Virus record (IMG/VR): IMGVR_UViG_3300037132_000109
Location: 1-36,367 of that record
Reading direction: 5' to 3' (one strand)
From: a virus
Length of the DNA: 36,367 nucleotides
Part shown: piece after piece, positions 1,827 through 29,380 of the stretch
How the letters are laid out: every line of letters begins with the position of its first letter
How positions within the stretch are numbered: the stretch's first letter is position 1
Position numbers and translations under genes: made by a program
The notes under the pieces: generated by a model
What the model saw: the letters and a program-made list of their open reading frames with translations, nothing else
What the model was told of the DNA's origin: nothing
Database searches by the model: none

Positions 1827-2741
1827 CTAATTTGCCACTATTGGATTTGGTATTGTATTTGTTCTTGTATTTATTCCATTAACTAAACAATTTTGCATAT
1901 AAGACAAATACTGGCTTGGAGTCTGACCTACTATATCGTGTTCTGTATTTATCACATAATCATAAACAATTTGACTTAATGCTGGTGTAGTTTCAATTTT
2001 GATCCCATAATTTACTTTAAAGGAATCATTTGGATTTGCCTGAGAATCTAAAAATGCACCAGATGTTGCCATTGAAGATAGAGGAACTGCTGAAATTACA
2101 ATCTGGGTTATTTCTGAATAATCTTGAATGGTAGTATTACAATTGCCTGACAAAACAAGGCTTATAAGTTGTTGAACTTCTGGTGGTGGATTCCCATAAT
2201 AGGTTAGTGTTGGAGTATTTGTAGCCATAAAAGATGGCTCATCTATGGAACCTACAAACCACCACGCTTGTGAAATATCTGGATTGTTTGGTTCTTGTGG
2301 TGTTGGTGCTGAAGCTATAACTGGCTGTTGAACTACAGTTGTTTGTTCAGTAATGGCTGTTCCAGTTACACTGGCTTGCTCTTGTGCTATTTGTCCTGCT
2401 GTAAGATTGGAACCAGAAGTATTTGCTCCTGCCGATACAACAACTTCTGTTGTGGTTGGTTGAACAAAAATAGCCACAGGAGTTGCTACAACTGTAGTTA
2501 TTACAGGAGTGCTTATAGCACTCGTTGTAGTGGCTTTATTTTGGTTTACAACAGGCTTTGTAACTGTAACCACAGATTTGACTGTTGGCTTTGTTTTTAC
2601 TACAACTGGCACAATTTTAGTGGTAGTTGCAACTGATATACTTATTGTTGATGTAGCTTGGGTAGTAGGAACTTTTACAACTTCTTTATGAATTGTAAAT
2701 ATGCCTGATATAAAAACCCATATAATTAAAAATATTTTCAT
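1827..2741 (-). CDS. exported Thr/Val-rich protein of unknown function, 304 aa
   Basis: The N-terminus MKIFLIIWVFISGIFTIHKE is a signal peptide or membrane anchor. It is followed by a long low-complexity stretch (residues about 24-150) of Thr, Val, Ser, Ala and Pro, including TTQATSTISISVATTT, likely an extended stalk. From about residue 155 a more ordered domain follows (QAWWFVGSIDEPSF..., PPPEVQQLISLVLSGNCNTT, YLSYMQNCLVNG); its two Cys could form a disulfide outside the cytoplasm. There is no lipobox. The style resembles secreted proteins of Parcubacteria-like organisms rather than virion proteins. It sits 4 nt upstream of nothing structural, inside the leftward accessory module. Possible roles are cell-envelope modification or superinfection exclusion; both are guesses. 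Confidence 0.6.
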   Translation of the reverse strand: MKIFLIIWVFISGIFTIHKEVVKVPTTQATSTISISVATTTKIVPVVVKTKPTVKSVVTVTKPVVNQNKATTTSAISTPVITTVVATPVAIFVQPTTTEVVVSAGANTSGSNLTAGQIAQEQASVTGTAITEQTTVVQQPVIASAPTPQEPNNPDISQAWWFVGSIDEPSFMATNTPTLTYYGNPPPEVQQLISLVLSGNCNTTIQDYSEITQIVISAVPLSSMATSGAFLDSQANPNDSFKVNYGIKIETTPALSQIVYDYVINTEHDIVGQTPSQYLSYMQNCLVNGINTRTNTIPNPIVAN

Positions 2742-2745
2742 ATTA

Positions 2746-2961
2746 TTATGGCATTAAACTTATAATAAAGTTCCACAGACTAAATGGAGCTTTTGTAATT
2801 CTTTCTTTAAACTCTTTTGGATTTCCACAAGAACTAAAATCATTTTCAATTATATCTAATATTTGAGCTTTTCTCTTTATTGCTTCCTCATTCCTATTCT
2901 TTATGCTCTGCTTGAATATTGGATGACTTATTATTTGTCTCTTCGTCATTTGCTTGAGCAA
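2746..2961 (-). CDS. small hypothetical protein, 71 aa
   Basis: I do not recognise this protein. It is basic at the N-terminus (MTKRQIISHPIFKQSIKNRN) with a helical middle and a hydrophobic C-terminal end (FSLWNFIISLMP). It begins inside the 3' end of the upstream gene; the overlap is 68 nt from this start, or 53 nt if the second ATG at 2946 is used. It ends 4 nt before the exported protein gene, which suggests translational coupling. Confidence 0.45.
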   Translation of the reverse strand: MLKQMTKRQIISHPIFKQSIKNRNEEAIKRKAQILDIIENDFSSCGNPKEFKERITKAPFSLWNFIISLMP

Positions 2962-3196
2962 TACTATTCTCCATTAATATTTCTGGATCTAGCTTGCTAT
3001 AATTTATAACTGATTCTTCAAATACTGACTTGTATAAATTTTTTAAGTCTTCTTTCTCTTGTCCTTCAAATCCATTTATTGATGTATAAAGTTCTGCACA
3101 ATATTCAGACTGATGTTCTATTGTATCTGATTTTTTATTGACAGCTATCTTAGCATGCTTTTTTGCATCCTCAATTAACATTTCTTCATTCCACAT
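2894..3196 (-). CDS. small acidic hypothetical protein, 100 aa
   Basis: I do not recognise this protein. It is predicted to be helical and acidic (MWNEEMLIEDAKKHAKIAVN at the start, then EGQEKEDLKNLYKSVFEESV), with a polar, probably disordered tail rich in Asn, Glu and Ser. Its start overlaps the end of the zinc-finger gene by 11 nt and its end overlaps the next small gene, so the three are likely translated from one message. Confidence 0.5.
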   Translation of the reverse strand: MWNEEMLIEDAKKHAKIAVNKKSDTIEHQSEYCAELYTSINGFEGQEKEDLKNLYKSVFEESVINYSKLDPEILMENSIAQANDEETNNKSSNIQAEHKE

Positions 3197-3431
3197 TTTG
3201 TTGTTTGGTTAAAGTTTCTAATTTTTTCAAGGATCTTATTCTGGCTGGTATAACTTTCTTCAAATTACATTTGTCACAACACAGACCATCTCTTCTACAA
3301 GATACAGAATTGTTTCCTTCTCCTTCAAACTCTTCTTTGCATATACAACAATCATGTCTTTCAACACGAGGTCTGGCATTTAATTTATCCATTGCATCTA
3401 CATCTGGATTTCCTTGTAATGGTTCTTTCAT
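3186..3431 (-). CDS. small phage zinc-finger protein, 81 aa
   Basis: The core reads CCICKEEFEGEGNNSVSC, then DGLCCDKCNLKKVIPARI. The pattern CxxC...GxGNN...DGxCCxxCNxxVIPAR is a widespread small phage family that appears to bind one zinc through two CxxC knuckles; its role is unknown. The first 25 residues have no clear motif. ATG at 3431 gives the full domain. It is part of the leftward run of small genes and overlaps the next gene by 11 nt. Confidence 0.7.
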   Translation of the reverse strand: MKEPLQGNPDVDAMDKLNARPRVERHDCCICKEEFEGEGNNSVSCRRDGLCCDKCNLKKVIPARIRSLKKLETLTKQQNVE

Positions 3432-9075: not shown

Positions 9076-9615
9076 ATGTCACATCCAGCACAAAGAAATT
9101 TCTTTAATAGTGTAAAAGATAAATTTCCTAAAAATTTTAAGAATGTAACTGCAATAGACTTTGGCTCACTTGATGTGAATGGTTCATTAAAAGATTTATT
9201 TGAATTGAGCAACTATATTGGAGTAGACATTCATCCAGGAAAGAATGTAGATATAATAAGTCCAGCTGATAAACTAAATAGATTAGAACATCATTTAGAT
9301 TTAGTTGATACTGTTGTATCTGGAGAGATGCTTGAACATGATGAGTTCTGGTTTCAATCTTTAATGAATATGTATGCCATGCTTAAAGATGGAGGACTCA
9401 TGGCAATTTCAGCAGCAGGACCAATGAGAGAAGAACACGGAACAGCAAGAACTACAGGAGATGAAAATTTATGGGGAACAAGTCCTGATTACTATAACAA
9501 TATGTGCAAAGGAAAGTTTGGAGAATTCATAGATACAATCAATAGTAAAAAGCCATTCAAAGATTTATATTTAGAAGATAATGGACTTGATATATACTTT
9601 TATGCAATCAAATAA
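9076..9615 (+). CDS. class I SAM-dependent methyltransferase, 179 aa
   Basis: The motif VTAIDFGSLDVNGS (from about residue 24) is a SAM-binding strand-loop variant. It is followed by YIGVDIHPG, where the acidic residue ends the second strand, then VVSGEMLEHD (motif IV region) and LKDGGLMAISAAGPMREEHG (post-motif). The pattern resembles methyltransferases found with glycosyltransferases in phage and surface-polysaccharide clusters, so a sugar or small molecule is a likelier target than DNA. The next gene, a glycosyltransferase, starts inside its last codons (14-nt overlap). A 121-nt gap without a gene separates it from the terminase. Confidence 0.7.
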   Translation: MSHPAQRNFFNSVKDKFPKNFKNVTAIDFGSLDVNGSLKDLFELSNYIGVDIHPGKNVDIISPADKLNRLEHHLDLVDTVVSGEMLEHDEFWFQSLMNMYAMLKDGGLMAISAAGPMREEHGTARTTGDENLWGTSPDYYNNMCKGKFGEFIDTINSKKPFKDLYLEDNGLDIYFYAIK

Positions 9616-10246
9616 AACAATACACATTATAACAGCATTTAGCAGGAGTCATCTAAAAGATACTCTTATCAATATGCTTTGGCCAATGAGTGTGATATGG
9701 CATCCTGTTTGTAATGAAGGAGATGAAACATTTAAGAAGTCTGCTGAAGACAAAAATAGCTGGATAAAACCTATCTATATTTCAGATATACCAAAAGAAT
9801 GGGACAAGTGTTATGCAAAGATAAACCATTTTATAAACAGTCAAGAAATAAATAATGAGGACTACTACATGATACTCAATGATGATGATGCTATTGAAGA
9901 AAATATAATTGAAGAGATTAAGAAGATGGACAATGACATTGTAGTTGTATCAATGAAGAGAGGAAACCAGACTCCAAAGGAAAGATATTTGTATGATGGT
10001 AGAGAAGCAGCACCACATGGATCGTCTACTTTGATAGCATCACCAGAGAATATGAAAGTTGGAGGAATAGGACCAGAACAAATTGTAATGAAAGGTAAAA
10101 TATTTAAAACATTGCAATATGCAAATTCTTATGTTGCAGATGGATTAATGGCTGAATACATCAAAGCATCCACTTACAGTATTGTTTATAGACCAGAATT
10201 ATTTATTAAGTTTAATTACTTCCAACCAGGAAGATGGAACAAATAA
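9602..10246 (+). CDS. GT-A type glycosyltransferase, 214 aa
   Basis: The N-terminus KTIHIITAFSRS is a typical first strand, and YYMILNDDDAIEENIIEEIK (from residue 88) contains the acidic DDD (94-96) that binds metal and the nucleotide sugar in GT2-like enzymes. HGSSTLIASPENMKVGGIGPEQ lies in the expected acceptor half. The frame is open from an ATG at 9581, but 9602 overlaps the methyltransferase stop in the manner of other junctions here and gives a natural start. It probably acts on a glycan or virion protein together with its neighbours. Confidence 0.65.
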   Translation: MQSNKTIHIITAFSRSHLKDTLINMLWPMSVIWHPVCNEGDETFKKSAEDKNSWIKPIYISDIPKEWDKCYAKINHFINSQEINNEDYYMILNDDDAIEENIIEEIKKMDNDIVVVSMKRGNQTPKERYLYDGREAAPHGSSTLIASPENMKVGGIGPEQIVMKGKIFKTLQYANSYVADGLMAEYIKASTYSIVYRPELFIKFNYFQPGRWNK

Positions 10247-10247
10247 A

Positions 10248-10796
10248 ATGCAATCAGGAAAAAATAACAACAATTATAAAGGAGCAAAAATATCAAGAAT
10301 TGATGGAGATGTTGCATACATTGAATTGTCAAATTCAGAAGAATTTGCTATCATAGACAGAGAAGATATAAAACTAATAGAAGACCAATCATGGAGGATT
10401 ATGAATAATCACGATTCAAGAGGTTATATTGGAAATCTATATGCAGTTGGTAATGGAAATCTTATGCACAGAGTTATTATGAAAGCAAAATACAAACAGC
10501 AATTAGACCATATCAATGGAAATGGACTTGACAATAGAAAAACTAATTTAAGATTTGTTACTCAAACACAGAATAATTTAAATTGTCATAAACCTCATAA
10601 GAAAAAAGATCCATCATTGCCAATGGGAGTTAGTTTTAATGCTAGAAATTGTTCATCAAGACCATACCAAGCAAGAGTGAAAGTTAATAAATATTCTAAG
10701 TATCTTGGTTCTTTTGAAACTGTAGAAGAAGCAAGGAAATGTTTTGTTGAAAATCGTATTAGAGTATATGGCAAAGAATTTGCTCCAAACATATGA
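10248..10796 (+). CDS. HNH homing endonuclease with AP2-type DNA-binding domain
   Basis: This 182 aa protein shows the phage HNH plus AP2 layout. The HNH part has LMHRVIM (His74), QLDHINGNGLDNRKTNLRFV (Asp87, His88, Asn100), then TQTQNNLN. The AP2-like part is MGVSFNARN...YQARVKVNKYSKYLGSF (residues about 126-172). Such genes are mobile nickases that copy themselves into related phages. The upstream frame is open to 10182, but ATG at 10248 just after the previous stop is the sensible start. It is wedged between two glycosyltransferase genes, overlapping the second by 4 nt. Confidence 0.88.
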   Translation: MQSGKNNNNYKGAKISRIDGDVAYIELSNSEEFAIIDREDIKLIEDQSWRIMNNHDSRGYIGNLYAVGNGNLMHRVIMKAKYKQQLDHINGNGLDNRKTNLRFVTQTQNNLNCHKPHKKKDPSLPMGVSFNARNCSSRPYQARVKVNKYSKYLGSFETVEEARKCFVENRIRVYGKEFAPNI

Positions 10797-11821
10797 AAAT
10801 ATTAGCAGTCATACCAGTAATAAACTTATGGAACCAATTCACAGAACAGTGCATTCTTTCAATTGCTAGTGAAAAGAACATTGTTGATGTAATGATTATT
10901 GACAATGCTTCAACTGATAATACTCAAGAGAAATGCAAAGAGATGCTACATGCTTCAGAGATGGTTGAAATGATTAAAGATCCAAAAAGAAACAAATTCA
11001 TATATCAAAGGAATGAGGAAAGATGGTGTGTAGCAAAGAGTTGGAACTATGGAATGAAATATGCTTTTGATAATGGTTATGATTTTTGTTTAATACTCAA
11101 CAATGATACTATTCTTAATAACAAATGCATAGATGCACTTGTAGATAGATTTGAAGTATCAAAATACAATCAAGAAAAGATTTTACTTATTTCTGGCTTA
11201 CACAAACTTATTCTGGACAAGCCAAGAGAAATTATAGATTATGTAGATACTAACACGAGTGTAGTAGAATCTGAATGTACCGATTATGCTCTCTTTATGG
11301 TCGGTAGAGAGTATTATAAGAAGATAGGAATGTTTGATGAGAACTTTAAACCAGCATACTTTGAAGATGCAGATTCAGTTTACAGAATTAAAATATCAGG
11401 ATACAGAAGAATACATTCACCAAGAGCTTTGTTTTATCATTATGGTAGCAGAACACACTTGGGAGCAGAAGCAAGGAAGATTGTATCAGATGTTATGTTC
11501 CTTGCAAATAAGAAATACTATATTGACAAATGGGGAGGTGATATAGGACAAGAGAAATTTATTATTCCCTTTAACAAAACAATTATTATGGAAGAACAAA
11601 TGTTTGATTTTGGACTAGGATTGAATATACTTAAGGATGGTAAAAGGATATGCAGAAAGAATTGGAATGGAAAGGGTCAATTTATTCAATTGCAGATGCC
11701 TGATACAAATAGCAAGATGACACTGCCTTATATTTTTATATCAACAGTGAGTGGAGATTTAGTTCCTTGGTTAGCTTCACAGACAGATTTATTAGCACAA
11801 GATTGGATAGAAGTTAAATAA
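10793..11821 (+). CDS. GT2 glycosyltransferase fused to a C-terminal DUF2829/Tad2-like domain
   Basis: Residues 1-260 are a GT2 catalytic domain: MKILAVIPVINLW, MIIDNASTDNT (34-44), the metal-binding-like ILNNDT (101-106), FKPAYFEDADSVYRI (186-199) and a lipid- or sugar-side helix. Residues 270-342 are a separate small domain: FGLGLNILKDGKRICRKNWN, GKGQFIQLQ, then LVPWLASQTDLLAQDWIEV. This pattern (FGxALxxLKxGKxVxRxxWNGKG ... PWLASQTDxLAxDW) is DUF2829, the family of the phage anti-Thoeris protein Tad2, which sequesters cyclic ADP-ribose signals. ATG codons at 11588 and 11600 could give the small domain separately. The first domain is clear by motif; the sponge role of the second is inferred from family. 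Confidence 0.85.
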   Translation: MKILAVIPVINLWNQFTEQCILSIASEKNIVDVMIIDNASTDNTQEKCKEMLHASEMVEMIKDPKRNKFIYQRNEERWCVAKSWNYGMKYAFDNGYDFCLILNNDTILNNKCIDALVDRFEVSKYNQEKILLISGLHKLILDKPREIIDYVDTNTSVVESECTDYALFMVGREYYKKIGMFDENFKPAYFEDADSVYRIKISGYRRIHSPRALFYHYGSRTHLGAEARKIVSDVMFLANKKYYIDKWGGDIGQEKFIIPFNKTIIMEEQMFDFGLGLNILKDGKRICRKNWNGKGQFIQLQMPDTNSKMTLPYIFISTVSGDLVPWLASQTDLLAQDWIEVK

Positions 11822-11828
11822 TAATAAA

Positions 11829-12011
11829 ATGGAAAATATAATAATCAATTTAAAGAAAGAAGATAAGAAATGGATTGCTAGTGTTGATTTAGGAATGAAA
11901 GGTGCTTTGATGGAGCAAGGAAGAGGATTGATAAGAACATTAGTTTTACTAGCAAAGAAAATTTATAAAACAATCAAAGATGAAAAAGGAAAAGAAGTTA
12001 AAACTAAATAA
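11829..12011 (+). CDS. small hypothetical protein, 60 aa
   Basis: I do not recognise this basic protein (MENIIINLKKEDKKWIASVD at the start, Lys-rich end). It lies 7 nt after the GT2-Tad2 fusion gene and overlaps the next gene by 32 nt. Its start context (TAATAATAAAATG) is typical for this phage. It could be a small helical accessory protein; nothing more can be said. Confidence 0.5.
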   Translation: MENIIINLKKEDKKWIASVDLGMKGALMEQGRGLIRTLVLLAKKIYKTIKDEKGKEVKTK

Positions 12012-12909
12012 AAAAGATGCCAAGCAAACAATTAAAAATAATAAAGACTCCACCAAAGAAGAAAAAATAAAAATACTTAAGCAACCAACCAAAGAAGAAT
12101 TTGGTATAGCTGAAAAGCAGATTGATAATGGACAACCAGAAATGGTTAAGAGAAGTCTTGATAACTTTATATCTACAGTCTCAAAGAGCAAGATTGCTGT
12201 TATAGTTCCATTGATAGGATATTGGTCTGACATAAAAGACAATCAATTAGACTTAGATGTTCTTAAGACAGTTGTTAATAGAATCTATTCTCAGGCTCAT
12301 GAGTTGTCAATTATATTTGTAGCAGATGAGAAGAGATTACCAAAAAAAATATTAAACTATATTGGAGTAAATTCTTTTGCAGGTAATGTTATGGGAGTGT
12401 CAGTTGAGAAAGGATCTTGTTATTCAGAATATATTGAAGAAGGAATGGATGCTGCTATTGAAACTATAGATGCTAGATTTATAATGGTTGTCAATCCATG
12501 GGTAATGCTTCAAGAACATTCAATAGATGAAATGGCAAATAGACTTAACAGAAGTGATGTCATGGTAGTTTCTGGATACAATATAAGAAATGAAATAAAG
12601 CCAGAAATGTTTGATGAAAAGATATTTGCAATACCACAAGAAACAAAAGATATAAATATGGACTTTGTTGGTATCAATAGAGTGTGTGCTGAGATGGCTA
12701 AGATTGATACTTCTATAAGAACAAAGAAGTATACTGAAAAAGATTTATGGCAGACTATATACAGAAAAGGTTATGAGGTTATTGTCTCACAAAGAATTCC
12801 TATATATGTTTTTGATATTGATATGAAAGAGATTGAAAGTAAGATGGATTATCAAAGTGATAAAGAAGTTTTTACTAGCAAGTGGGGATTTAATCCAGGA
12901 ATAAAATAA
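11980..12909 (+). CDS. divergent glycosyltransferase-like protein, 309 aa
   Basis: After a Lys-rich N-terminal stretch of about 65 residues, the core begins with SKIAVIVPLIGYWSDI, the first strand of a GT-A fold. HELSIIFVADEKRLP and MDAAIETIDARFIMVVNPWVM follow in the places where GT2 enzymes have their sugar-nucleotide strands. The usual DxD is replaced by VNPW, so it may be inactive or use another geometry. The C-terminal part has YTEKDLWQTIYRKGYEVIVS, as in many GT2 proteins. It belongs to the same glycan block as 9602 and 10793, and its stop overlaps the next ATG (TAATG). Confidence 0.5.
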   Translation: MKKEKKLKLNKKDAKQTIKNNKDSTKEEKIKILKQPTKEEFGIAEKQIDNGQPEMVKRSLDNFISTVSKSKIAVIVPLIGYWSDIKDNQLDLDVLKTVVNRIYSQAHELSIIFVADEKRLPKKILNYIGVNSFAGNVMGVSVEKGSCYSEYIEEGMDAAIETIDARFIMVVNPWVMLQEHSIDEMANRLNRSDVMVVSGYNIRNEIKPEMFDEKIFAIPQETKDINMDFVGINRVCAEMAKIDTSIRTKKYTEKDLWQTIYRKGYEVIVSQRIPIYVFDIDMKEIESKMDYQSDKEVFTSKWGFNPGIK

Positions 12910-15533: not shown

Positions 15534-17945
15534 ATGGCAAAAAAAGCATCTATCAAAAAAGAAGTTAAACCATCAGGTATTGCACCAATGTTTCCATTCA
15601 TCAAACATAGTAGCAAAACTACTTCAGTAAGATCTTTGTCTTTTGATAATAGAAAGCAGAGAAATGCTAAGATGATAAATAAAGGAATGTCCAAGCCTGG
15701 AAGTGTTTCTTTTGATACTCTTAGAAGAATTGCTGTGTCTGTTCCTATAATTAGAATATGTATTACTGTACTCAAAGAAAAAATATCAAAAACAAAATGG
15801 CAGATTAAGAGCATAGATCCTTTGAAAGAACCAGACAAAGAACAATTAGCTAAGCTTGAAGAATTGTTTAAACATCCTAATCATAATGATGAAACATTTA
15901 GAACTCTTCTTGATAAAATGCTTGAAGACTTATTGGTACTTGACTCTGTGTCTCTTGAAAAGACTAGATATCCAAATGGAGAACTAGCAGAACTGCACTT
16001 TATAGACTCTGCAACTATCAGACCTGTATTTGACCAGCAAGGAAATCAAGATCCTATTATAAGCATACCAGGAGTAAAAGGACAAGTAGAACTACCAGTG
16101 TCTTATGTTCAAGTTATGGACAACTCATCTTATGGTGGACCAGAGTCTGGAGAAATAGTTGCTGCTTGGCCAAAGAAAGATTTTATACATTTTCATATGC
16201 ATCCACAAGGATCTATGGAAAACTTTGGATATGGTTTGTCTCCAATTGAAGGAATCCTTTCTGTTATATCAAACTTGCTTAATGTAGATAACTACAATAG
16301 TACTTATTTTGAAGAAGGATCTTTTCCTCCAACTCTTATAAATTTCAAAGGACAAATGACTCAAGCAGACTTGGAAGCTGCTAGAGAATATATATATTCA
16401 GAAATGAATGGAAGCTTTCATAGACCTGCAGTTTCAGCTGGAGGAGAAATGGAAGTAATAAAGATTAAAGACCAGAACAATTCAGATATGCAGTTTATGG
16501 AATTCTATGAATTCTTAGCAAGACTAGCTTCTGCATCTTATGGTTTGTCTGGACAAGATGTTGGACTTATAGATGATTTAAATAGAGCAACATCAGAAAC
16601 TCAAGTAGCACTTTCAGAAGAGAAAGGATATGGCTCAATATTGCACTTAATTAAAGAAGTGTTGAATCAAGAAATTATCTGGAAAGACTTTGGATTTAAA
16701 GATTTAGAATTTGATTGGATGGTTGATGACAGAACAGATCCAGAAACAATTGGAAGAATTACAGACTTAGCTCTAAGAAATGGAGTAATGACAATTAATG
16801 AATCAAGACAAAAAATGGGATTAACTCCATATGGTGAATGGGCAAATGAGCCAATGCTATTATCAGGAGATAAATATATTCCTATGTCACCAGAAGCTCA
16901 ATCAAAAGGAGAAACTAAAGAAGAAGGAACTGTTGGTAATGAAGAAAACTATAAAGACCAAGAAATTAAAAAGTCTATAATGACTATGGATGGTTATAAG
17001 ACATGGATGGATGATAGAGGATACTCACAACCATTTATCTGTTTCAATATAATATCTCAAAACGGAATTGTAATAAAACCTCCTGTTGCAGTAAATATGA
17101 TGAGTCAAAATCTTGAAATAGAATTATCAAACAAATTAAGTGAGTTGGGACTCAATGTTCCCACTATAAGAAAGGTAAATTATAATGATTGCATAAACTT
17201 ATTACCATCAGAATCTGTTAAATGTGAATTTGAAAGATATATTACCATGACATCAGAGTATGATTCAGAGAAGTGGAAAGCTAGAGGTCTAGGTTCAAGA
17301 AAGTTTGACTATTATTTAGTTAGTGATTATATATATGGTTATAATTTAGATAGTCAATTAGTATTAAAAGATATGAATAGAGATCCTGATAGTTATCATC
17401 AAGCCATAAAAGATTTGGCAAATTTATGGTTAATTGAAAAGGAATTAATTCTTGGAGATAGAAGAGTAAACCAATACATAGTAACTCCAAATAAAAGAAT
17501 ATTTGGATTTGATTATCAATTTAAGGGAGATATAAATAGATGGAAAGATTCAAGTTCGTCAATTCAAAAATATTTTGAAGGTGCTCCTGAGATTTTAAAA
17601 TTATTTAATTCACTCATTGAGAATAAAAATATAAATAAATCTTCTAATATAAAACAACCTGATTCTATAATAGATTCTGAAAATGAATTTAAAGATAGTC
17701 CTGTTATGTTTGGAGAACTTATTAAAGACGATAAGGCTAGAATTAATATAAAAAACATATTTAAAAATTGGAGTGAATCAAACATAGTTAAATATAATTT
17801 ATCTGAATTATTTTATACATATGATTATAATCAAGCCTTAAAGTCTTTAAAGAATTTTTCAAAAAATAAACCTGAATCATATGGAGGAATAGTTACCTTA
17901 AAAGATGAAAGAGGAATTAAATATTGTGTTTTTGTAAAAAATTAA
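15534..17945 (+). CDS. portal protein with kinase-like C-terminal extension, 803 aa
   Basis: Residues about 40-450 are an HK97-type portal: VSVPIIRICITVLKEKISKT, LEELFKHPN, DLLVLDSVSLEKTRY, DFIHFHMHPQ, GYGLSPIEGI, and the C-terminal wing and stem with a TINESRQKMGL motif. The portal is the dodecameric DNA gate of the head. Most portals end near 450-500 residues; this one continues for about 300 more. In the extension, GIVIKPP (511-517), an ELSNKLSELGLNVP helix, LVSDYIYGYNL (hinge-like), LGDRRVNQYIV (640-650) and IFGFDYQFKGD (656-666) occur in the order of a small-molecule or PI3-kinase-like fold (ATP-Lys, Glu helix, hinge, catalytic GDR-x-x-[NQ], metal-binding D). This domain call is an inference. 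Confidence 0.88.
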   Translation: MAKKASIKKEVKPSGIAPMFPFIKHSSKTTSVRSLSFDNRKQRNAKMINKGMSKPGSVSFDTLRRIAVSVPIIRICITVLKEKISKTKWQIKSIDPLKEPDKEQLAKLEELFKHPNHNDETFRTLLDKMLEDLLVLDSVSLEKTRYPNGELAELHFIDSATIRPVFDQQGNQDPIISIPGVKGQVELPVSYVQVMDNSSYGGPESGEIVAAWPKKDFIHFHMHPQGSMENFGYGLSPIEGILSVISNLLNVDNYNSTYFEEGSFPPTLINFKGQMTQADLEAAREYIYSEMNGSFHRPAVSAGGEMEVIKIKDQNNSDMQFMEFYEFLARLASASYGLSGQDVGLIDDLNRATSETQVALSEEKGYGSILHLIKEVLNQEIIWKDFGFKDLEFDWMVDDRTDPETIGRITDLALRNGVMTINESRQKMGLTPYGEWANEPMLLSGDKYIPMSPEAQSKGETKEEGTVGNEENYKDQEIKKSIMTMDGYKTWMDDRGYSQPFICFNIISQNGIVIKPPVAVNMMSQNLEIELSNKLSELGLNVPTIRKVNYNDCINLLPSESVKCEFERYITMTSEYDSEKWKARGLGSRKFDYYLVSDYIYGYNLDSQLVLKDMNRDPDSYHQAIKDLANLWLIEKELILGDRRVNQYIVTPNKRIFGFDYQFKGDINRWKDSSSSIQKYFEGAPEILKLFNSLIENKNINKSSNIKQPDSIIDSENEFKDSPVMFGELIKDDKARINIKNIFKNWSESNIVKYNLSELFYTYDYNQALKSLKNFSKNKPESYGGIVTLKDERGIKYCVFVKN

Positions 17946-25717: not shown

Positions 25718-26134
25718 ATGGAAAAAGAAAGTACATTAAAAAATAGTAGAGGAAGAAAATTTGGATTTAAAATGACAGATTCACAGAAAGAGCATCAAAG
25801 AAATATGATACTTGGAAATAAAGCTTCCAAAGAGACAAAAGAAAAAATGAGAGAAACGGCACTCAATAGAAGGATGTCAGGAGAAAATAATCCAAACTGG
25901 AAAGGAGGAAAGGATAAAAAAACCATACAAGAGAGATTGGCAGGAAGACCAAAATCTAAAATATGTGAAATTTGTGGTTCTAATAAAAGAATATGTTTTG
26001 ACCATGACCATGTAACAAATAAATTTAGAGGTTGGCTTTGTATAACTTGCAATTTTGCTTTAGGATTAGTTAAAGACAATAAAAATACTTTAAAGTCCAT
26101 GATAAAATATTTAGATAAAAATCCATGCTTATAG
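25718..26134 (+). CDS. homing endonuclease: NUMOD3-like plus endonuclease VII-type HNH, 138 aa
   Basis: The N-terminal part has basic NUMOD3-like DNA-binding segments (GRKFGFKMTDSQKEHQRNMI, SGENNPNWKGGKD). The C-terminal part, CEICGSNKRICFDHDHVTNK then FRGWLCITCNFALGLVKDN, is the recombination-endonuclease-VII type HNH domain with two CxxC zinc pairs and the DHDH catalytic centre. Such genes are free-standing mobile endonucleases. It is inserted between the capsid gene and a glycosyltransferase, overlapping the latter by 10 nt. Confidence 0.88.
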   Translation: MEKESTLKNSRGRKFGFKMTDSQKEHQRNMILGNKASKETKEKMRETALNRRMSGENNPNWKGGKDKKTIQERLAGRPKSKICEICGSNKRICFDHDHVTNKFRGWLCITCNFALGLVKDNKNTLKSMIKYLDKNPCL

Positions 26135-27321
26135 AAATTAAAAATACCAAAGCAAGTTCTGTTTTCATGGATAATGTATTTTATGAAACAAAAAAACCAA
26201 TAGAAGTACCATTTTCTATTGCTATGAAATTAAGCAAAAGAGTTTCAGTTGATTTTATAGATTTTGCTAGTAAAGAATACAATCCAGAACACTGGAATAA
26301 AGATAAATATCTAATTTTTAGTACCAATATAGATGCTATATCTGGATGGGGAAATCTTGGATATAGTTTTCTTAAATACAGTCCAGATCTTAGGATATCT
26401 TTGTCTGGAAATTCAAATGGAATAAATGATTCAATATCAAGAAGAGCTTTGAGTGAAGAAATAAGAGAAGATGGAGCTTGTGTATGGTGGGAACAACCAA
26501 GTGAAAAGTTTTTAACATCTCCATTCAAAAAGAATATTTCTATATTGATGTTTGAAACAACTTTAGTTCCACCTAGCTGGGTTGCAAGATTAAATACTTT
26601 TTCTGCTCTCATAGTTCCTTGTAAACAAAACAAAAAGATGTTTGAAGATAGTAGAGTTAAGATTCCAATTCATGTAGCTCCACTCGGAGTTGATTTGAAA
26701 AGATTTTATCCTCTTGAGAGAAGTAATAAAACATTTACTTTTGGACATATGGGTTTCTTGAGTACTAGAAAAGGAACAGACATGCTTGTAAAAGCATTCT
26801 TAGAAGCATTTCCTAATAAGGAAGATGTAAAACTCATTTGTAAAACATCCCATAATCAGTATCACTACATGGTAAAGGACAAAAGAATTGAAGTACAAAT
26901 TGGTCCTGTTACTCACGAAGAGCTTATTGAAAACTTTTTTAAGAAAATAGATTGTTTTGTTTTTCCAACTAAAGGAGAAGGATTTGGTTATCCTCCAATT
27001 GAAGCTATGGCAACAGGAGTGCCAGCTATATGTACAGGATGGTCTGGTCCAGAAGAATTTTTAGATAAGAAAGATAGTTATATCCTTGATTATAAGTTAA
27101 TTGATGCTGAAGATTTTACAAAAAATATATACAAAGAAGATTGTGGTCAATGGGCAATGCCAGATTACAATCAACTAGTTAAATATTTAAGACACTGTTA
27201 TACTCACCAAGATGAAGTAAAAGAAAAAGGTGCAATGGCAGCTAAAAGAGTTGCAAAGGATTGGGGATGGGAAAAGAGAATTAAAGAGTATCACAAAATA
27301 ATAGATAAGTACCTAAAATAA
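26125..27321 (+). CDS. GT4-family glycosyltransferase (GT-B fold), 398 aa
   Basis: The C-terminal half is classical GT4: IHVAPLGVDLKRFYPL, FTFGHMGFLSTRKGTDMLVK, then FVFPTKGEGFGYPPIEAMAT followed by GVPAICTGWSGPEEFL, which contains the E-x7-E nucleotide-binding motif. The first 60 residues (SSVFMDNVFYETKKPIEVPF and onward) look like a separate small beta domain. GT4 enzymes transfer sugars from nucleotide donors with retention of configuration. Located in the capsid region, it may glycosylate virion proteins or host surface sugars. The acceptor is unknown. Confidence 0.85.
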   Translation: MLIEIKNTKASSVFMDNVFYETKKPIEVPFSIAMKLSKRVSVDFIDFASKEYNPEHWNKDKYLIFSTNIDAISGWGNLGYSFLKYSPDLRISLSGNSNGINDSISRRALSEEIREDGACVWWEQPSEKFLTSPFKKNISILMFETTLVPPSWVARLNTFSALIVPCKQNKKMFEDSRVKIPIHVAPLGVDLKRFYPLERSNKTFTFGHMGFLSTRKGTDMLVKAFLEAFPNKEDVKLICKTSHNQYHYMVKDKRIEVQIGPVTHEELIENFFKKIDCFVFPTKGEGFGYPPIEAMATGVPAICTGWSGPEEFLDKKDSYILDYKLIDAEDFTKNIYKEDCGQWAMPDYNQLVKYLRHCYTHQDEVKEKGAMAAKRVAKDWGWEKRIKEYHKIIDKYLK

Positions 27322-28681: not shown

Positions 28682-29380
28682 ATGTCAACAAAAAAAGGAA
28701 CAAAAAGACCAGATGTTGTAGAAAGGAACAAAAGCCAATCAATGAGAATGGTTGTTTCTAATACTTGGAAAAATAAGGACAATACACTGAGAAAGAAAAA
28801 AATTGGAATATCAAATTCAATTTCTCTAAAAGGAAAGCCATCAAATTCAAAAGGAAAACATTGGAAATTGTCAGAAGAAGATAAAATGAAATTGAGAGGT
28901 AGAACTCCATGGAACAAAAATCTCACAAAAAATAACAGTGAAAAAGTTAGGATATATTCTGAAAAATCCGGAAAGACTAGAAAAGAAAGAGGTTCTCAGA
29001 AAGGAGAAAAGAATGCAAAGTTTGGCAAACCAGATCCAGCCAGCAGAGACAGAATAATAAGAACTATGCAGTCTGGAAAAATGAGTGTGAATACAAAACC
29101 TGAGATGAAAATGAAAGAGATATTAGAAAAAGCAGGAATACACTTTGAAAGACAGAAAAGAATAGGGAGATATTTAGCAGACTTCTTTATTTCTGAATAT
29201 AATTTAATCATAGAATGCGATGGTGATTATTGGCACAATAGACCAGGAGCACAAGAAAGGGACAAGTTAAGAGATGCTGAAATAAAAGCAATGGGTTATG
29301 ATGTTATAAGATTTTGGGAGCATGAGATAATGAAAGATGAATTGGATGTAATAGGTTGTTTGGCAATAGAATTACCATAA
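28682..29380 (+). CDS. EDxHD/Vsr-like homing endonuclease with NUMOD3 repeats, 232 aa
   Basis: The first 145 residues are basic with NUMOD3-like segments (NSKGKHWKLSEEDKMK, GRTPWNKNL, GEKNAKFGKPDP). The C-terminal nuclease has TKPEMKMKEILEKAGIHFER, IGRYLADFFISEYNLIIECD and GDYWHNRPG, then a helix and DVIRFWEHEI. The E...D...ECDGxYWH layout is that of Vsr-like PD-(D/E)XK homing nucleases (EDxHD group). It interrupts the connector module; its stop and the next start share an A (TAATG). Confidence 0.85.
   Translation: MSTKKGTKRPDVVERNKSQSMRMVVSNTWKNKDNTLRKKKIGISNSISLKGKPSNSKGKHWKLSEEDKMKLRGRTPWNKNLTKNNSEKVRIYSEKSGKTRKERGSQKGEKNAKFGKPDPASRDRIIRTMQSGKMSVNTKPEMKMKEILEKAGIHFERQKRIGRYLADFFISEYNLIIECDGDYWHNRPGAQERDKLRDAEIKAMGYDVIRFWEHEIMKDELDVIGCLAIELP

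Follow-up and report, generated by a model that had tools for sequence, protein, structure and literature searches.

The window analysed here, 36,367 nucleotides of viral DNA in all, encodes on its forward strand a single open reading frame in which a GT2 glycosyltransferase (GT) is followed by a Tad2-like domain (Table 1). Pfam matched Glycos_transf_2 (PF00535) at residues 6-122 (E=2.6e-11, 44 bits against a cut-off of 23.3) and Tad2-like (PF11195) at residues 272-341 (E=3.4e-21 to about 1e-22, 76-80 bits against a cut-off of 25), the latter match spanning model positions 2-73 of 73 and thus being essentially complete. A chance origin is ruled out for both matches. An earlier note on this DNA had described an N-terminal GT2 enzyme and a C-terminal DUF2829/Tad2-like domain, with both sets of motifs in one uninterrupted frame, and had proposed a profile search of the C-terminal region. 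That search returned PF11195, the former DUF2829; the two Pfam families bear out the fusion, LKDGKRICRKNWNGKG and PWLASQTDLLAQDW are both present in it, and the two ATGs that the note had pointed to (11588 and 11600) are in frame.

In the full-length structural model, the GT-A and Tad2 domains are separated by a stretch (residues 259-267) whose pLDDT falls below 50. Since PFNK (residues 259-262) marks the end of the GT family, the linker has a length of about 7 residues. The parts of the protein are known, their arrangement is a new domain architecture, and both domains look intact.

Table 1. Position, strand and supporting evidence of the features in and around the fused frame (residues are those of the fused protein).
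Feature	Position	Strand	Evidence or remark
GT-Tad2 ORF	10793-11821	+	ATG start, 342 aa, open without interruption
GT2/GT-A glycosyltransferase domain, residues 1-262	10793..11578	+	PF00535; GT-A fold neighbours; 87% identical GT in L001
GT NND motif, residues 103-105, DxD-type region	11099..11107	+	N103 in 14/15 and D105 in 15/15 relatives
GT EDAD motif, residues 191-194	11363..11374	+	E191 and D192 in 15/15, D194 in 14/15 relatives
Linker TIIMEEQ, residues 263-269	11579..11599	+	pLDDT <50 at 259-267; L001 stop at residue 262-263
Tad2-like (PF11195) domain, short form, residues 270-342	11600..11818	+	PF11195; Z 12.3 to SPO1 Tad2
ATG at the common stand-alone Tad2 start place, possible internal start	11600..11602	+	20-21 aa before WNG
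WNGKG motif, residues 291-295, beta1-beta2 loop	11663..11677	+	W, N, G invariant in 41 relatives
WLASQTDLLAQDW motif, residues 326-338, beta4-alpha3 loop and alpha3	11768..11806	+	W, S, D, D invariant in 41 relatives
SAM-dependent methyltransferase, same cassette	9076..9615	+	phrog_32762, E=6.6e-34
Neighbouring gene, GT-A-like by motif ILNDDD (by eye)	9581..10246	+	no Pfam match
HNH endonuclease, probable centre of recent transfer tract	10248..10796	+	phrog_99, E=3.5e-28; identity profile
Small downstream ORF	11829..12011	+	L001 counterpart directly 3' of GT
Diverged GT-like cassette gene	11980..12909	+	E=3e-6 to GT HMM
GT4 gene	26125-27321		Pfam

The two domains of the fused protein

The N-terminal half belongs, as far as profile, fold and motifs can tell, to the GT2 family: the profile match, the GT-A fold and the catalytic acidic motifs are all present, and sugar transfer itself is predicted. 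The fold neighbours of this part of the full-length model have E values of about 1e-10 and include RmlT, WrtF and TarS. Foldseek lists for the full-length model contain GT matches only; one domain can fill such a list, so they are silent on the Tad2 part. Between the window and L001, one of two syntenic viral contigs (L001 and L002), GT residues 1-221 have a dN of 0.023 and a dS of 0.257, and the domain is judged from these rates to be under purifying selection. It probably works in a glycan-modifying cassette that includes a methyltransferase, two GT-A-like neighbours and a GT4. The closest known enzymes are phage GT2s of packaging-region glycan cassettes, those of L001/L002 being 87% and gp015 of Synechococcus phage S-CBS4 about 32% identical to the window's GT. 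The methyltransferase, GT and HNH neighbours in these cassettes are similar to those in the window, whereas the GTs themselves end at PF(N/G)(K/L) or similar and have no Tad2 domain.

The C-terminal domain was modelled separately with AF2 (window positions 11588-11818, alignment of 41 sequences), with a pLDDT of 92.4 and a pTM of 0.79. In VIA-align comparisons, the model superposes on SPO1 Tad2 (8sme) with Z 12.3 at 1.9 A over 74 residues and on Myroides Tad2 (ModTad2) bound to hisADPR with Z 12.0, and the best row outside Tad2 has a Z of 6.5. All solved proteins nearest to it are Tad2 or AcrIIA7: across SPO1 Tad2 (8sme/8smf), ModTad2 (9eib) and HgmTad2/AcrIIA7 (8kbi), the predicted fold is alike at Z 11-12. 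With AcrIIA7 as an anti-CRISPR protein, itself Tad2-like, the likeness is one of sequence relationship only. The window's domain and the solved Tad2 proteins have in common the pocket motifs WNGK, W, SQTD, LA and DW, and in an alignment with the Tad2 of Bacillus phage SPO1L3 the WNGK, W, SQTD, L, A and DW positions are identical. The Tad2 pocket is formed by the beta1-beta2 and beta3-beta4 loops, strand beta4, the beta4-alpha3 loop and helix alpha3 (PMC12043709). Placed on these elements through the DSSP string of the model, that is by prediction and not from ligand coordinates, the pocket residues are conserved in the Tad2-like domain. The earlier note had staked its reading on a DUF2829 match, a Tad2 fold and the retention of the pocket residues, and none of the three failed; the structure prediction that it had proposed, run on the full protein and on the domain, gave a single-chain fold that is Tad2-like.

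The domain differs from the solved Tad2 proteins in its length and its context. It has 73 residues against 88-104 in the solved Tad2 proteins listed (one construct has 158), it is fused to the C-terminus of a GT, and it is a putative binder. All the solved Tad2 proteins listed carry, between beta2 and the strand after it, an additional segment (the beta2-beta3 insert) that is absent from the window's domain, and the model has no helix at that place, so that the feature of the cyclic-dinucleotide (CDN) subtype is missing; this insert characterises the CDN-binding subgroup of Tad2 and does not define PF11195. Within Tad2, the insert is reported to bind cyclic dinucleotides at a site distinct from that of gcADPR (PMC12043709, a review). 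The short form may therefore keep the TIR-signal pocket and be devoid of the dinucleotide site. Short forms with the SKMTLPYI core are frequent in phages, where most of them are small genes of their own. Those of Mycobacterium phage Curiosium (gp4), Acinetobacter phage XC38 and Aeromonas phage Ahp1 are 51-61% identical to the window's domain, with the same SKMTLPYI...PWLASQTD type of core and no insert, but they are separate genes of about 72-78 aa without a GT. In phage Ahp1, a gene for nicotinamide phosphoribosyltransferase (1852-3231) begins about 115 bases downstream of the short-form gene (1501-1737 of the locus).

Distribution of the fusion among relatives

In L001 and L002, the order of genes is the same as in the window: methyltransferase, GT-like gene, HNH endonuclease, GT, small ORF and GT-like gene. 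The two contigs are identical over the 10.8 kb compared and therefore count as one independent case. Their GT matches that of the window at 87% identity over residues 1-261 and ends at residue 262 (KTSFNL, then the stop codon), and the small ORF comes directly after it; in the window, the two genes are separated by about 240 bp that encode the Tad2 domain. PF11195 had no match on either contig, both of which may be incomplete.

The nucleotide identity between the window and L001 is very uneven. In the backbone it is mostly 60-75%, with further blocks of higher identity at 9300-9900; over the HNH gene (10200-10900) it rises to mostly 96-100%, is still 91-97% up to about 11400 and drops to about 64% near 11500. 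The HNH gene has a dN of 0.014 and a dS of 0.009. This pattern of identity looks like a transfer of the homing-endonuclease type, with a tract from about 10200 to 11450 that would have replaced most of the GT and ended some 150 bp before the junction. Two more free-standing endonucleases lie among the structural genes of the window, an Endonuclease VII (25718-26134, E=9e-15) and a DUF559/MTES_1575/Vsr-like protein (28682-29380, E=1.5e-18).

The pairing of the two domains was searched for from both sides. None of 41 viral relatives of the GT (some of them near-duplicates) ends in Tad2 or has a Tad2 motif within 3 kb. Conversely, a GT HMM that recognises the window's own frame with E=8e-98 detected no GT of the window's type in any of the 152 Tad2 frames taken from 160 viral loci. 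We thus rejected the idea that GT-Tad2 is a recurring architecture. The annotated features of the phage matches listed, many of which are labelled only "hypothetical protein", include no GT-Tad2 pair, and the two Nitrospirota matches, with open frames of 97 and 109 aa, contain no GT fusion. No second contig spanning the junction came up in a DNA pattern search over the GT tail, PADLOC had no match on the window, and a literature search returned no paper joining Tad2, glycosyltransferase and Thoeris. A "terminase" annotation over one Tad2 match was dismissed, since it lies on the opposite strand. From these comparisons the fusion appears to be local to the lineage of the window, with one sequence carrying it.

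The relatives of the Tad2 domain are mostly separate phage genes, as expected from the earlier note's description of Tad2/DUF2829 as usually small and stand-alone. They commonly begin at an ATG located 20-21 residues ahead of WNG, a position that ATG 11600 matches exactly. Some Tad2-like domains (the proteins of phrog_1048 and phrog_872 and those of L094, L159 and L183) are, like that of the window, C-terminal to a partner, which in these proteins is a small, uncharacterised domain (roughly 50-75 aa) and in the window an enzyme of 260 aa. The recurrence of N-terminal partners in other phages implies that the Tad2 domain tolerates them. One such domain, with the pattern ..YIGTKLINA..DENGADEGYLVEY..GYxSWSPKxVFExAYR, recurs before Tad2 in many phages (L094, L159, L183, L212 and others). 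In L105, where the Tad2 match is at 2501-2707, the N-terminal part resembles, by eye only, a degenerate second Tad2-like copy.

Origin and role of the fusion

We consider the fusion to be probably, though not certainly, real, and our preferred explanation, which we hold at little better than even confidence, is a lineage-specific fusion of a GT with a short-form Tad2 in which the GT keeps its role on glycans and the Tad2 tail is a passenger signal sponge. The GT of L001/L002 stops at the junction and ATG 11600 is at the canonical start, which suggests that a stand-alone Tad2-like gene would have been inserted just behind the GT stop; with the loss of this stop the reading frames would have merged, leaving the sponge as a C-terminal tail. 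The GT would retain its usual glycan-modifying role, while the tail would oligomerise like other Tad2 (Thoeris anti-defence 2) proteins, which as homotetramers have their ligand pockets between protomers, and would sequester, without chemistry, a TIR-derived nucleotide signal (gcADPR, His-ADPR or related), thus acting as a tethered equivalent of Tad2; ATG 11600 might provide a second, small product. The short-form gene of Ahp1 near a nicotinamide phosphoribosyltransferase gene fits an NAD-linked counter-defence and, as a single case, lends it weak support.

The fusion may also be apparent, if an assembly error of one base has fused a GT whose end is at about 11573-11615 with an overlapping stand-alone Tad2 gene that starts at ATG 11600 or 11588. 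Any single indel within 11560-11599 would split the fusion, which makes such an error possible: the GT stop would then fall beside or just inside the Tad2 start, in agreement with the place where the GTs of the relatives stop and with the canonical position of ATG 11600. Among the viral contigs searched, moreover, one contig alone covers the junction. Yet the frame continues through PFNK, the C-terminal consensus of the GT family, so the error would be confined to roughly 20 bases after it, and the longest run near the junction is only AAAA. We regard an assembly error as unlikely, if a serious contender. A further reading takes the fusion as real and the Tad2-like domain as a module that binds nucleotides or sugar nucleotides, or that oligomerises, in the service of the GT and not as a defence sponge. 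The location of the domain in a glycan cassette and the use of nucleotide sugars as donors by GTs speak for it, as does the short form itself, which is devoid of a segment found in all solved Tad2 and for which we know of no solved structure or ligand. Against this, relatives carry the same GT without the domain, the domain's own relatives are mostly stand-alone phage proteins, and its pocket motifs are the same as in a functional anti-Thoeris Tad2, all of which leaves a dedicated GT module rather improbable.

A dual output, in which a free sponge translated from ATG 11600 (or 11588) accompanies the fusion and may assemble with its tails, would be compatible with the retention of the canonical start and with a partial GGAAG upstream of 11600. 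Starts in this phage, however, are not marked by Shine-Dalgarno pairing, and the value at 11600 (-3.3) is only at the lower quartile of the background, so we give this possibility a small chance. As for the functional tie drawn in the earlier note, in which glycosyl transfer destroys the bound ligand or the enzyme targets the sponge, the comparisons do not sustain it: syntenic phages that have no Tad2 carry the same enzyme at the corresponding place of the operon, and the linker between the two domains is of low confidence. A tail that captures the TIR signal for a GT that modifies it or anchors the sponge at the site of defence, making the fusion a working counter-defence enzyme with a catalytic or localised sponge, is accordingly very unlikely. 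That the GT glycosylates and thereby destroys the captured signal, or brings the sponge to a particular site, has the physical linkage alone in its favour and seems more doubtful still, as phages devoid of Tad2 have a GT with 87% identity to that of the window and the pairing does not recur; we know of no GT2 that acts on TIR-type signals. There is no sign of a new joint action of the two halves.

If the preferred, lineage-specific fusion is real, the Tad2-like family gains a large enzyme partner, and a stage in the assembly of phage counter-defence genes has been caught, namely the arrival of a small sponge gene behind a housekeeping gene, followed by the fusion of the two. The fusion alone does not demonstrate a new mechanism. 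The finding also highlights the short form of Tad2, common in phages.

Other features of the window lie outside the fused frame. The clear genes have almost no Shine-Dalgarno signals before their start codons, a hint that the host may rely on initiation signals of another kind. The portal protein (15534-17945) has 803 aa and extends about 320 aa past the portal match; this extension, which had no Pfam match and no convincing sequence match in the PDB, includes a kinase-like looking stretch (ILGDRRVNQYIVTPNKRIFGFDYQF). On the reverse strand, positions 703-1344 encode a protein of 213 aa made mostly of short repeats (VSGDAWVCGDAQ..), of which the long open frames in the other reading frames are a by-product.
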